Source: Acidobacteriota bacterium (GTDB lineage Bacteria; Acidobacteriota; Blastocatellia; Chloracidobacteriales; JADJPF01). Taken from it: a stretch of DNA of 64,000 bases. Made by a program: the position numbers and the translations under genes. Positions 5,309 through 11,240 of the stretch are shown piece by piece (position 1 is the first letter of the stretch; each line of letters begins with the position of its first letter). The notes beneath the pieces were generated by a model. That model made no database searches. It was not told where the DNA came from and was given only the letters and a program-made list of their open reading frames with translations. The DNA is taken from NCBI GenBank assembly GCA_016213785.1, contig JACQZQ010000094.1, forward strand, positions 1 through 64,000, written 5' to 3'.

Positions 5309-8300
5309 TTATTTTGTTGGTTTAGCATCTTTAGCGCCTTCTTTAGGAGCGTCTTTTTTCTTATCCCAACCAGTATATTTAATACCGATTTTTTCTAAGA
5401 AACCTTTAGGTGCTTCACTACCAATCATAGCAAACACAAAATCATTAGGAATAGTTCCTATGACTTGTTCACCACGAATCTTCATTAAAGTAACTTCTTT
5501 TTCTTTAATTTCCTTTAAGCCAGCGCCAAAGTAAGCTTTCATTCTGCCTTTATCTATACAATAGTAAACCCACATCTTGTTTTCTAGAGTCAAGTCTTTT
5601 GGGAAGTCAGAACGAACAACTAAAGAAACTTCATTACCACCTTCTGGAAAGATTACAGTCCCATCATCTTGACGCTTACCTGTTAAGTCTACAGCAGCCT
5701 CTACCGCAGAGTTACCTGCACCAACTACAACAATCTTCTTACCTTTGAAATCAGCAGGATCTTGTAAGCGGTTAAGGATCTTTTGGTCATGCTCTTTTTC
5801 GCCAGTTACGCCAAGTTTACGAGGAGCCGCCGCAGTACCCAAAGCAAGGATAACTTTGCGAACTTTATAGCCAGTTTGATTCTTGACAGTCTTAACTATA
5901 AAGATTCCATCTTGTGGTACAACTTCGCTAACGCCTTCAAATTCATTTATTTTGATATTGAATTTTTGTACTGCTTCATCCCACCAACCTAGCATTTTTT
6001 CTTTGAGATCTCCTCCGCCTTCTAAACGAACAGCACCTAGAGGGGGATCACTAGGATTAAACGGGTTAAAGGCTACATATTTACCAGCAGGATATTTATC
6101 TGCAATGGTTGCATATTTACGGCCTTGTTCTAGTGCAATATAGCTAAGACCAAGCTCAGCAGCGCGTGCTGTTGCTGAAATACCGCCAGGGCCTATACCA
6201 ATTATTGCAACGTCTATATCTGCTCCAGCTTTACCTTCTGCTTTTATCTTTTCTGCAATTTTATCTACAGCCACACGGCCTTCTTTAATTGCATTACGAA
6301 TAAGTGGTACACCAGAAACATCACCTACTAAATAGACTCCATTAACATGCTCTGTTTCAAAGCCTTCTCCAGCCCCTTTACGAAGTGGTTTAGGAGCTTC
6401 ACGAATGTTTTTCTTAGTGTTAATAAGTACACAAGATTGAGGTGCGGTTGGACAAGCAAGCTGACAACCCGTATCTTCCATACATTGTTCAAAGTTAACT
6501 ACAATTGCATGGTGTTCTTGGTCATCAAATCCAAGAACGTCTTGAGGGCAGGCTAAAATACATCCATGACAACCTATACAAGTCTCGACATTAATAATAG
6601 GGTGTGGCACTGGTCGAGAGCGGGAAGATTTTTCAGCACTAGCTTTTTGAGCTGGAGATTCCCATTTTTGAGCATATTTGATACTACTTGCATCCCAAGC
6701 TTTTTTATTAGAAAGGTCTATTAATTGGCCTTTAAGTTTTTCTTGTACCTGACGGCGGCGAAGAGTATCGACTCCTAAGAAACCTAAGATAGTTAAAGGA
6801 ACAATACTAAAGAAAATTAACCAGCCAGAGAAAGACATTCCACCAAATCTAGCTGCAAAAGATGTCCAATTCCAAGATCTACCACCACGAAAAACGCTAT
6901 CGGCAGTATAGACTTCTAAAGTCTTTTTGGCATCAATCTTTTTACCAACAGCAGGTCTTAGCATTACAGCTTTAAGCTCTTTACTTTCACCATGTTGTGG
7001 GTGACAAGAATTGCAGTCAAGACCATTTTTAACTGCTAATTTGTCAAGCATCTCTTTTGCTTCTTTGGATTGTTTATTGGAAATATTTACAAACTGTACG
7101 CCATGACAAACTGCGCATTTGTTGCGATCAATATTTTTAGCCAGTTCAGGAGTGTCTAAAGAACCATGACAGTCATTGCAACGGGCACGACCAGCTTCGC
7201 GACCACTTAAGTGAACGTAATGGAATTTACTAGACGGTGTTAAAACATCATCTGTTGGAAGAGCCTTTTTCATATATTCATTCATAGGATCTTTCCAAGT
7301 CCATTCTCCACTATCGCTTATAGGATAGCCAAAGTTACCACCATGAGGTTCTGTAAGTTTTTTACCAGCAACAGTTTTAGCTTTAGGGTGTTTAGGGTCA
7401 GCCGAATGGCAATCAACGCACATACTACGAGCCACAGTTGCAGGGCTAAAAGCCTTACCTTTATGGTCAGTATGACAGTCCATACAACTTATTTTGGCTT
7501 TATCGTGGGCATCAATAACATTTGGATTAAAGTGTGATGTCTGGTGGCAGCTTTTACACTTTTGCTCCATAGGGGTTACAGCGGAGTGACAGCTAGCACA
7601 ATTACCACCAACAGAAGAGTTAGAAGCAAGTAGAGGTTTAGAATTTGGTAAAAGTTGTGCCCGATTAAACTCATTAGCCTCATGAGCGGCAGCTAGTGGG
7701 CCTGGAGAGAGAAAACCATCATAGGTTAAAGATAATGCAGCAGCAACCACAGTGATAATTATACCTAATGTGCCTAAAAAGCCACGAGGCCAGGGGCGTA
7801 CTAAGTCTGTAGAGGGCAACCAATTAAATTGTTTTTTACCTAAGTGAAGGTTAAATTTCTCATACTCAGGATCGGGTTTATTTGGGCGTAAAAGAGAAAT
7901 ATCAGCCATTTTTTGCTCGCCGCCTGTTTCTGCTAGCTTGCGTCTATCCCAGAAAGCATCCATAGTTTGTTGGAATTTTTGTTGCTCATCTTGTGGCAGA
8001 GCCATAATTGAGCTAAGAAGTCCAGTCATACCACGTTGCAAGCGAGCAGCCCCTAGAAGCTGTGTTGCACTTTGTTTTGATACTGCTTTACTAGGAGAAG
8101 GTGTAGGAGCACCTGGTTTTGCTCCAGGAGCACCTGGCATTGATATCCCAAGCTTTTTTAACATCTCTGGGTCAAGCATTTTAGTTTTACCACTAGCTAT
8201 GGCTTCTAATGGCCCACCTAGGATTTGTGTTCCACGATTATTTGCTGATACGGAGTCAATTTGTTTTTCTACCTCTAAAGTGAGTGATCCATCATCTGGA

Positions 8301-8596
8301 TCCATTTGTGGTTTAAGCAAGAAAACCCCAATTTGAATAGCATCACTATCTTCTAGTTGTACGGTTTCAATTAATGCTCCATTAACTATAGTGCCGTTAG
8401 AAGTAGATAGATTTTTGATCCAATAAGCGCCATCAATTTTACATATACCTGCATGGGTACGAGATACTGCTGGGTGGTTAAGCAGTACATCATTACCTAG
8501 TGCAGACCCAATGGTCAGACTATCGCTTTCGATTACTAAATCATCGTTGTCTAAGTCTGTTCTCTTGATGACAAATTTCGTTGATTCTGTACTCAT
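5309..8596 (-). CDS. FHA - seven-haem cytochrome c - ferredoxin - flavoprotein fusion
   Basis: About 1095 residues (numbering here from a TTG four codons upstream). Residues 10-100 are an FHA phosphothreonine-binding domain (IGSALGND, SRTHA, NGT). A Pro-rich linker leads to a membrane helix at 275-297. Seven CxxCH haem motifs follow between 337 and 536 (CASCH, CKSCH, CMDCH, CVDCH, CNDCH, CAVCH, CNSCH). A second helix (594-613) with RRR after it returns the chain to the cytoplasm. Cys-rich Fe-S motifs lie at 677-726 (CIGCHGCILACP, then CMEDTGCQLACP), then a thioredoxin-reductase-like FAD/NAD(P) module (GIGPGGISA, VVGAGNSAVEA). The predicted path is NAD(P)H, FAD, Fe-S, periplasmic haems, or the reverse. 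ATG 8596 has AGGAG upstream. It is second in an operon after the cNMP/cytochrome b gene. Substrate unknown. Confidence 0.88.
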   Translation of the reverse strand: MSTESTKFVIKRTDLDNDDLVIESDSLTIGSALGNDVLLNHPAVSRTHAGICKIDGAYWIKNLSTSNGTIVNGALIETVQLEDSDAIQIGVFLLKPQMDPDDGSLTLEVEKQIDSVSANNRGTQILGGPLEAIASGKTKMLDPEMLKKLGISMPGAPGAKPGAPTPSPSKAVSKQSATQLLGAARLQRGMTGLLSSIMALPQDEQQKFQQTMDAFWDRRKLAETGGEQKMADISLLRPNKPDPEYEKFNLHLGKKQFNWLPSTDLVRPWPRGFLGTLGIIITVVAAALSLTYDGFLSPGPLAAAHEANEFNRAQLLPNSKPLLASNSSVGGNCASCHSAVTPMEQKCKSCHQTSHFNPNVIDAHDKAKISCMDCHTDHKGKAFSPATVARSMCVDCHSADPKHPKAKTVAGKKLTEPHGGNFGYPISDSGEWTWKDPMNEYMKKALPTDDVLTPSSKFHYVHLSGREAGRARCNDCHGSLDTPELAKNIDRNKCAVCHGVQFVNISNKQSKEAKEMLDKLAVKNGLDCNSCHPQHGESKELKAVMLRPAVGKKIDAKKTLEVYTADSVFRGGRSWNWTSFAARFGGMSFSGWLIFFSIVPLTILGFLGVDTLRRRQVQEKLKGQLIDLSNKKAWDASSIKYAQKWESPAQKASAEKSSRSRPVPHPIINVETCIGCHGCILACPQDVLGFDDQEHHAIVVNFEQCMEDTGCQLACPTAPQSCVLINTKKNIREAPKPLRKGAGEGFETEHVNGVYLVGDVSGVPLIRNAIKEGRVAVDKIAEKIKAEGKAGADIDVAIIGIGPGGISATARAAELGLSYIALEQGRKYATIADKYPAGKYVAFNPFNPSDPPLGAVRLEGGGDLKEKMLGWWDEAVQKFNIKINEFEGVSEVVPQDGIFIVKTVKNQTGYKVRKVILALGTAAAPRKLGVTGEKEHDQKILNRLQDPADFKGKKIVVVGAGNSAVEAAVDLTGKRQDDGTVIFPEGGNEVSLVVRSDFPKDLTLENKMWVYYCIDKGRMKAYFGAGLKEIKEKEVTLMKIRGEQVIGTIPNDFVFAMIGSEAPKGFLEKIGIKYTGWDKKKDAPKEGAKDAKPTK

Positions 8597-8669
8597 AGCT
8601 CTCCTCAACTTTTAAGCTAAAATACTTAGCTTGAATAAAGATTAACACCAAGATTTATTTAATATTTAA

Positions 8670-11240
8670 TTAGTTACGCCACAGATAGTAGGTTACCTGA
8701 ATAATGTGTATGAGCAAGAGAGCTAGCATTATAGATGTAAAAATAACATGTGGAGGTAACCAAAGTTTTAATGCACGATGCAGATATACAAGAGCATCTA
8801 CTCTACGCACTGTTGCAGCTGCTTTAGCCAGTTTAATAAAAGCATCTTTTTCTGATTGATCTTTTATTTTACTTGCTTCCCCTTGAAATTCTTTTTGGGT
8901 AGCAGCTAATAACTCTTCTACTGATTCTTTCTTAAGATATTGACGTAGTAGATAAGGTAAGGAAGTAATAGTATCTAAAACAACATCACGCCCTTTAAGA
9001 AATCCATTCCTAAACTCTGCTTCACGGTTTTGTTCTTTTGCTTTATTTTGGCAAGTTGCTGTAATATCAGCTATTTCTTGGTATAGCTCTTCACGGCGAC
9101 GTTGTAGGTCTTCTATTAAAAGAGGCTCGCCTTCAATCTGTGTTAATGTTCTAGGGCCTAACCAATAAATAAGAATACCAAATAGACCTGTAAGGATTAC
9201 TAGGTCAAAAGAAATCATTAGAGATGCTGTTAAATAACCACCTAAGCTAGTACCACCATGTAATAGTAGTAATACTCCGGCAATAACTCCAGCATAAGTA
9301 TGGCTAAGCATCCAATAGCGAAGCGAGCCACTACGTTTTAACCACATTTGTCGTCTCATAGGATAGGCCATAACTACAACTATTCCTAAGAGTCCTACTA
9401 AACCTGTTATCCAGCGGAAATTAAACCAGTTAGTGGTAAGAAGTGGTGTTCCAAGACCATACTGGACAATTCCAGCCATAGTTAAACCACATAAGAATAG
9501 AGTAAATATAATCCCAATAACATGAGCAATTTGTTTACCAGTGTCTTTATAAGATCCTTTACGTACAGTTGCTTGAGCGTTTTTATTAAAAGCAACTCCT
9601 TTAATATTAGAAATTTCTGAGAAATATTCTGTTGGGCTAACACGCATACAAGCGCCTGTTGGACAGCTTTCTACACAATTATATCTATGGTCTTTATGGA
9701 TTTTAACCCCATTTTTATCAACAGGATTAATTGCTGTTCCATTACAGAGGTTACATTTTACTGCTACTAAATCCTCTTCACCCGTTACTGGGCTTGGTTT
9801 AGTGTCAAAAGCTAGTCCTAGCATTTCAAAAACATTAGCTTTTGCTTCTGCTGTAGCGCCTTTAGCACCTGCTTTAGCATCCTTTGCAGGAGCGGCTTTA
9901 GCCGCAGCAGGAGCACCAGGTTTTCTTAAGTCTTTACGTAGTACTAATGAAATGGCATTATAGGGACATTGAGTGGCACAATCTCCACAGCCAATACATG
10001 TAGCAGGATTAATATCAACTTGTCCGCCTTGAAAACGGGCGATTGCTCCAGTAGGACAACCAGTCATACATTCAGGATCTTTGCAATGTAGGCAAACCGA
10101 AGGTGCAAGAATGCTTTGATCCAATTTATGGCTAACTTCTTTAGGTCTAAATAGATGGATTCCTCTGCGAGTTAATCTTGCTTGACCATGTATTTCGTGG
10201 CAAGCCAAAGAGCAATTACCACATCTTACACATAAATCCATATCCATTACTAAAAGGTTAGTTGCATCAGCAAGACCTTTATCTAAAATACGATCTTGTG
10301 CACTTTTAGCAGGTTTAGCAAAAGCTAGTTGTTTTTCGGGTTGTAGCGGTGTTCCAGTACTACTAAAGGGTAATAATTCTGTTTTTAGACTTTCCATTAA
10401 TTGTGGATAAGCCATTAGTTTCTTAAATGGAACTTCTAATACTTCTGTACGGCTAAGAACAGTGGCTTTATAAGGCCATTTAGCTCCACGCTCGGTTAAA
10501 GCATTTAAGCCTATACAGTATCCTGAGCCAATAAAATCGGCTGAATCGCCTGTTTTATCTGCTTCACAAGTTCGTTTAAGCCAACCATCTTTAACTATAA
10601 CAAGTCGATCTATTGGGCGGTTTTCTTGACAAGCAACGTGGCCTCGGGCAAGTACACGAAACTCTGAGATTTGAGCTAACTGTTTTTTAGCTTCTTCACC
10701 AATAGACAATATGCCTAGGGTAGAGTTACGTCCATTATTACGATAGGTTAAGTCGAGTGCAGCACCAAATTTCTTTAGCTTTCTTAACATACGTAAGGCG
10801 GGGCGTTGTACTTCAAGTACAGTGATACCTGTTTCATGGTGGGCTTTAATAGTAGCTGCACGTTGTACACCTGCTAAAACAGCCATTTCTCCAAAAGGAT
10901 TTCCATGTTTAACAGATGCAACAGGTTCTTTACCCTCTTTTACTGCTTTAACAAAAATTTCTGCTGAGCCTTCAACTACAATATAAAAAGTGTTAGTGTC
11001 CCAGTCTCCTTCACGAATTACTTCTGCTCCTGCTGGATACTTGAACATTCTAATATAGGGGCCTACTTTTTTACCTGGGCCATAATTACGGCCATAAATA
11101 GATACTTCTAAGTCAACTGCGTATTTATAACCATGTCCTGCTTCAAATTCCACTAGCTCTTCAATCGCTCCAATGCCTTTAATAGCTTGAATAATTGCAT
11201 GATGGTCTTGCACTTCTTGACGCTTTAGCTCTTTACTCAT
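8670..11240 (-). CDS. cNMP-binding - four-cluster ferredoxin - membrane cytochrome b-like fusion
   Basis: 856 residues. Two cyclic-nucleotide-binding domains come first (about 60-160 and 190-290). The first has an intact phosphate-binding cassette (FGEMAVLAG..RAAT); the second is degenerate. Residues 337-531 carry four Cys clusters in DmsB/HybA-like order (CVRCGNCSLAC, CLHCKDPECMTGC, CIGCGDCATQC, CNLC...CVESC) with an Ala/Lys-rich insert near 440-470. Membrane helices follow at about 570-700, with His pairs (LSHTYAG, LLLLHGG), then a coiled cytoplasmic insert and a last His-bearing helix (HRALKLWLPPHV, LLIHIIQ). These His could bind b haems or quinone. It is first in the operon, 73 bases ahead of the FHA/cytochrome gene, and is probably its membrane partner with cAMP- or cGMP-controlled activity. 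Confidence 0.87.
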   Translation of the reverse strand: MSKELKRQEVQDHHAIIQAIKGIGAIEELVEFEAGHGYKYAVDLEVSIYGRNYGPGKKVGPYIRMFKYPAGAEVIREGDWDTNTFYIVVEGSAEIFVKAVKEGKEPVASVKHGNPFGEMAVLAGVQRAATIKAHHETGITVLEVQRPALRMLRKLKKFGAALDLTYRNNGRNSTLGILSIGEEAKKQLAQISEFRVLARGHVACQENRPIDRLVIVKDGWLKRTCEADKTGDSADFIGSGYCIGLNALTERGAKWPYKATVLSRTEVLEVPFKKLMAYPQLMESLKTELLPFSSTGTPLQPEKQLAFAKPAKSAQDRILDKGLADATNLLVMDMDLCVRCGNCSLACHEIHGQARLTRRGIHLFRPKEVSHKLDQSILAPSVCLHCKDPECMTGCPTGAIARFQGGQVDINPATCIGCGDCATQCPYNAISLVLRKDLRKPGAPAAAKAAPAKDAKAGAKGATAEAKANVFEMLGLAFDTKPSPVTGEEDLVAVKCNLCNGTAINPVDKNGVKIHKDHRYNCVESCPTGACMRVSPTEYFSEISNIKGVAFNKNAQATVRKGSYKDTGKQIAHVIGIIFTLFLCGLTMAGIVQYGLGTPLLTTNWFNFRWITGLVGLLGIVVVMAYPMRRQMWLKRSGSLRYWMLSHTYAGVIAGVLLLLHGGTSLGGYLTASLMISFDLVILTGLFGILIYWLGPRTLTQIEGEPLLIEDLQRRREELYQEIADITATCQNKAKEQNREAEFRNGFLKGRDVVLDTITSLPYLLRQYLKKESVEELLAATQKEFQGEASKIKDQSEKDAFIKLAKAAATVRRVDALVYLHRALKLWLPPHVIFTSIMLALLLIHIIQVTYYLWRN

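Follow-up and report, generated by a model that had tools for sequence, protein, structure and literature searches.

The C-terminal module of a 1099-residue protein from a member of the Blastocatellia (Acidobacteriota) is very probably a natural circular permutation of a flavoprotein of the YpdA/thioredoxin reductase (TrxR) type. This protein is encoded on the minus strand (5309..8608) of the window, i.e., the whole 64,000-nt stretch of DNA analyzed here. In the proposed arrangement, the beta-alpha unit that closes the FAD domain would be placed ahead of the first Rossmann strand; the FAD domain would begin with its closing strand, and the chain would stop after the NAD(P)H domain. A joint explanation, in which the permuted flavoprotein belongs to an NAD(P)H-FAD-[FeS]-heme electron conduit, also appears probable.

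Layout of the protein

From its N-terminus, the protein consists of an FHA domain (residues 32-94, 8327..8515; Pfam PF00498, E 4.7e-14), a first predicted transmembrane helix (residues 274-292, 7733..7789), a c-type cytochrome domain with seven CxxCH motifs (residues 337 to 536, 7001..7600), a second predicted transmembrane helix (residues 590-608, 6785..6841), a ferredoxin domain (residues 670-721, 6446..6601; Pfam Fer4_10) and the putatively permuted YpdA/TrxR-like flavoprotein, all on the minus strand. Both helices come from a hydropathy scan, and the multiheme domain is defined by motif positions together with matches to Cytochrom_c3_2 and Cytochrome_C7; an extra, eighth CxxCH string at residue 677 is part of the ferredoxin. 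The listed start codon is the TTG at 8608; an in-frame ATG found four codons on, at residue 5 (8596), is an alternative and may be the true start in place of this TTG.

Across the ferredoxins of the window protein and 12 aligned relatives, the CxxCxxCxxxCP pattern is kept and the second site reads Cx5CxxxCP, giving seven invariant cysteines in the 13 sequences, and not eight. Judging from this pattern, one of the clusters may be of the 3Fe type or have a non-cysteine ligand.

The flavoprotein core spans residues 799-1080 (5369..6214, minus strand) and comprises an FAD Rossmann domain, with its GxGxxG motif GIGPGG at residues 804-809 (6182..6199), and an NAD(P)H Rossmann domain, with its GxGxxA motif VVGAGNSA at residues 961-968 (5705..5728), without a closing segment at its end. 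A segment made of a strand, a GD turn and a helix, and homologous to the C-terminal segment of YpdA and TrxR, is found at residues 750-790 (6239..6361). The preliminary description of this DNA had placed a GD-type closing motif, GVYLVGDVSGVPLIRNAIKEG, at residues 757-777, ahead of both Rossmann motifs, and these positions were confirmed. Its second observation, that the chain ends where the GD motif would normally come, was borne out as well: AMIGSEAPKGF stands at residues 1060-1070, about 20 residues lead from the NAD(P)H domain to the end of the chain, which is reached at residue 1099 with a Lys-rich tail, and no closing segment was found after the NAD(P)H domain. Pfam Pyr_redox_3 and Pyr_redox_2 cover residues 799/802-1079 and stop short of the model end, the TIGR04018 match of the protein extends over model positions 1-263 of 316, and the moved segment is left without annotation by Pfam scans.

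Evidence for a permuted flavin module

The homology of the early segment to a conventional C-terminus was assessed with a profile of 44 columns, for which 21 conventional YpdA proteins, and no others, supplied the closing segments. The closing segment lies C-terminally in the ordinary YpdA of the same genome (L049) and in 20 other conventional relatives. The search for further permuted members that had been proposed yielded 51 distinct proteins with a conserved order, i.e., 52 open frames by locus identifier (37 of type A and 15 of type B, see below) minus one duplicate. This set leaves aside near-copies and contig-split loci (e.g., L009-L022, L025-L029, L031-L033, and L035-L037), the fragment L046, the weak matches L125-L137, and the unfetched matches of a phylum sample. 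In all 51 proteins, the best profile match is found directly ahead of the core, with a gap of 11-36 residues (median 15) between the end of the match and the core; iE is below 0.001 for 43 of them and below 0.01 for 46. Among the five segments above 0.01 with this YpdA-only profile, three, all of type B, are weak (0.23, 0.38, and 1.1). None of the 51 proteins has a match after the core, and the controls (reversed sequences, or the rest of each protein) gave 0/51 each at iE<0.01, with a best score of 1.2 bits. The window segment itself (locus L056) reaches a modest 16.1 bits (iE 1.5e-5), versus a weak 6.0 bits (iE 0.034) with a six-sequence profile of cNMP type.

Chain order was also probed by rotation, whereby the 60 residues ahead of the core were transferred to its end and the result was scored on a conventional full-length profile. 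Rotation raised the score in 51/51 permuted proteins, by 13.2 bits on average, whereas moving a shuffled copy of the segment lowered it by 10.7 bits on average; the real segment outscored the shuffled one in every protein, and a different upstream segment in all 39 proteins that have one. Two independent NCBIfam models were covered almost in full by the window module once it was rotated: the TIGR04018 match went from 130.6 bits over positions 1-261 to 143.5 bits over 1-315 of 316, and the TIGR01292 match from 54.8 bits over 2-245 to 65.2 bits over 2-298 of 300. With the AhpF model, the rotated module scored lower than the native one (49.9 versus 56.8 bits). Furthermore, when the window module was compared by BLASTP with L112, a relative of conventional order, two non-collinear matches resulted: 63-344 pairs with 8-265, and 14-49 with 278-312, the latter match being weak (E 0.02); two such out-of-order matches are the pattern expected of a permutation. 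The claim of the preliminary description that the FAD domain is permuted is thus supported by the segment profile, the rotation, the non-collinear BLASTP matches and the type B proteins. The motif order is beyond chance, since it is kept in relatives at 70-95% and at 32-54% identity.

Structure prediction followed by comparison with known folds, another of the earlier suggestions, points to a TrxR/YpdA-like core. The model of residues 737-1083, built from 14 alignment rows, has a mean pLDDT of 73.5 and a pTM of 0.70, with a pLDDT of about 61-66 for the moved strand. It contains a strand at 758-760, a helix at 770-791 and beta-1 at 798-803, and this predicted order matches the beta-alpha-beta unit expected of closing strand, closing helix and beta-1. 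The best Foldseek match is YpdA (7a7b_A, E 7.0e-20), and VIA-align also aligns the model to YpdA (7a76_C), with a Z of 20.0 and an rmsd of 5.4 over 261 residues. In the latter alignment, model residues 59-346 are paired with residues 1-273 of 325, the closing part and the first 58 model residues remaining unpaired, and the high rmsd possibly stems from a rotation of the domains in the model. An earlier model that included the ferredoxin (9 rows) was poor (pLDDT 54.5, pTM 0.51) and its ferredoxin part is not interpretable.

The moved segment would probably fold back in cis onto its own FAD domain. The permuted order could also be correct with the closing segment completing the FAD site of the neighboring subunit, as in a domain swap. 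In favor of such a swap, TrxR-like flavoenzymes occur as dimers or tetramers, and one monomer of a TrxR-like FNR places a C-terminal subdomain over the FAD of the other (PMC10294844). However, the 11-36 residues between segment match and core (n=51) correspond roughly to a normal loop between helix and strand, and the predicted helix stops just six residues short of beta-1, both of which make the swap quite improbable. The preliminary description had itself named a competing possibility, namely that the early GD motif belongs to a separate second flavin domain. Such a motif could mark the end of an upstream flavin domain, either separate or decayed, conceivably a by-product of tandem duplication, and GD motifs do occur in many flavoproteins; nevertheless, the region upstream is a ferredoxin, there is no second match after the core in the 51 proteins, and the segment begins the protein in type B, where proteins with an intact start have only about 20-45 residues ahead of it, too few for a separate flavin domain. 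The probability of this reading is very small. No tandem-duplication intermediate, which would carry the closing segment at each end, turned up among the 51 proteins. Finally, a chance motif and an assembly or frame error were both rejected, as the order is conserved in 51 distinct proteins and the controls are negative.

Relatives, distribution and origin

The proteins with the permuted order have two architectures. In type A, represented by the window protein, by compact proteins of ~440-600 residues and by others, a ferredoxin is followed by the closing segment, the core and the end of the chain. In type B (L048, L101-L110, and others), the closing segment is N-terminal and is followed by the core and by a membrane domain with Fer4, which we take to be NapH-like. 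The statement that the closing segment was placed next to the ferredoxin module is therefore correct for the window protein, but does not hold as a general rule, the Fe-S part of type B proteins being far C-terminal. L048 (5184-7499 of contig C84, 771 aa) is a second permuted protein of the same genome. Conventional sisters are found too (L111-L114, L116, and L117; in the case of L112, by Pfam), with the order core, closing segment, two cNMP domains and ferredoxin.

The gene upstream of the permuted one (8670..11240, minus strand) encodes a partner of 856 aa made of cNMP-binding domains, ferredoxin clusters and a membrane domain. Its product aligns with the C-terminal half of the conventional fusion L112 (28% over 492 columns, E 1e-42), and this fusion of a conventional flavoprotein with a homologue of the upstream gene suggests that the two window genes work together. 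Both genes are present in 14/14 searched genomes of the order; the permuted gene of one genome (G013) is divided between two contigs, and another genome (G002) has the two genes of the pair on different contigs.

The seven named relatives at 70-95% identity mostly carry Blastocatellia or Chloracidobacterium (Acidobacteriota) titles, and one of them is titled Actinomycetota and has a scaffold named Acidobacteria. The permuted order is also encountered on a contig of the Bacteriovoracaceae (Bdellovibrionota; L047), on plasmids of Emticicia (Bacteroidota) and Pseudoalteromonas (Gammaproteobacteria), and on IMG/VR contigs, one of 328 kb. On the Bacteriovoracaceae contig (6067-9604), frames with 14 and 30 CxxCH motifs lie downstream of the permuted gene. 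The 328-kb contig, from a putative large phage, encodes a compact permuted ferredoxin-flavoprotein (L122, 4863-6164) whose neighbors are glutaredoxin-like, ClpX-like and exonuclease genes; further putative-phage loci are L121, L123, L124, and L172-L174, and a search of an isolate-phage collection for the permuted protein gave no match. At E<=1e-40, the alignment matches 66 of 396 genomes in a sample of the phylum, conventional relatives being counted in. Two annotated members bear the generic name "NAD(P)-binding domain-containing protein".

On a free quick tree, the permuted state takes two changes, because the conventional cNMP fusions sit within an unresolved fork. When the 56 permuted rows were constrained to a single clade, the likelihood rose by 9.17 (p-AU 0.814), and these sequence data are compatible with, and do not prove, one origin of the permuted state. 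We would lean, by a small measure, toward a broader scenario, in which a single ancient permutation of the fold with two dinucleotide-binding domains founded a widespread, unrecognized family, and in which a chain opened at the FAD-closing strand, with the end of the NAD(P)H domain set free, allowed the flavin module to be fused directly to ferredoxin, multiheme cytochrome or NapH-like membrane domains, leading to NAD(P)H-to-periplasm conduits in one polypeptide.

Electron transfer and known systems

The fused ferredoxin, the helices flanking the seven-heme domain and the multiheme genes adjoining the permuted gene elsewhere, such as the two genes annotated as cytochrome c3 family in Emticicia, argue for transfer from NAD(P)H via FAD and [FeS] to heme. 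NAD(P)H would reduce FAD in the cytoplasm, and electrons would then reach the ferredoxin cluster fused beside the closing segment and, from there, cross the membrane to the seven-heme domain, while the FHA domain and the neighboring cNMP/Fe-S/membrane protein could provide regulation and further electron exchange. Such transfer to periplasmic heme, with the direction and topology presumed here, is likely, and would give Acidobacteriota a compact route from NAD(P)H to periplasmic cytochrome. The flavoprotein module is unlikely to work by a dithiol mechanism, since a motif scan found no CxxC in residues 740-1099 and since the sole cysteine of the flavoprotein module, Cys1017, is missing from relatives L018 and L019.

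Electrons could also run inward through the permuted protein, from periplasmic cytochromes or the quinone pool to NAD(P)+ or ferredoxin. Nothing in the sequence fixes the direction, and Chloracidobacterium, a phototroph, is among the relatives. Nothing decisive speaks against inward flow, but uphill reduction of NAD(P)+ needs an energy input that is not seen in the module, and we consider this direction possible but clearly the less likely one.

YpdA/Bdr (TIGR04018; PDB 7a76, 7a7b, and 7apr) is the best match of the window core in both sequence and fold; the two share the FAD and NAD(P)H Rossmann motifs and, by profile, the same closing segment, which is C-terminal in YpdA/Bdr, whereas it precedes the core in 51/51 permuted proteins. 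As the nearest solved structures are those of Bdr/YpdA, the module might be a bacillithiol-type thiol/disulfide reductase, with the ferredoxin and hemes as accessories. This seems improbable, however: the TIGR04018 score of the window protein, 126.7 bits, remains far below the cut-off of 339.9 even after rotation, GPGG replaces the GPCG that holds Cys14 in YpdA, and the one module cysteine is not conserved. Unlike YpdA/Bdr, the protein is also fused to ferredoxin, heme and FHA domains. The role of Cys14 in YpdA is itself debated (PMC8945050).

The preferred reading, an electron-transfer flavoprotein of permuted order, can be set beside other members of the fold. Thioredoxin reductase (TIGR01292) has a CxxC redox pair in its NADPH domain, which the window module lacks. 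TrxR-like FNRs are more similar in this respect: according to PMC10294844, they combine a TrxR fold lacking the CxxC pair with electron transfer between NAD(P)H and a ferredoxin partner. They differ by their conventional order, by a C-terminal subdomain over FAD and by a separate ferredoxin, whereas the window protein has a fused ferredoxin and ends ~20 residues past the NAD(P)H domain, without such a subdomain. The literature searched, mostly open-access papers, yielded no prior report of a TrxR-type flavoenzyme that is circularly permuted in nature. A natural circular permutation of an FAD enzyme is described in PMC3779223 for PutA proline dehydrogenase versus MTHFR; it concerns an FAD-binding TIM barrel, a fold unrelated to the window module. 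The conventional YpdA-cNMP-ferredoxin fusions, finally, have the same core, a closing segment closely similar to the permuted ones, and cNMP and Fe-S domains like those of the gene next to the permuted one, but their order is conventional, the closing segment linking the core to the cNMP domains. Since one phylum thus holds conventional relatives alongside permuted ones, the way in which a cofactor-binding fold accommodates and exploits a changed chain order can be tested directly.
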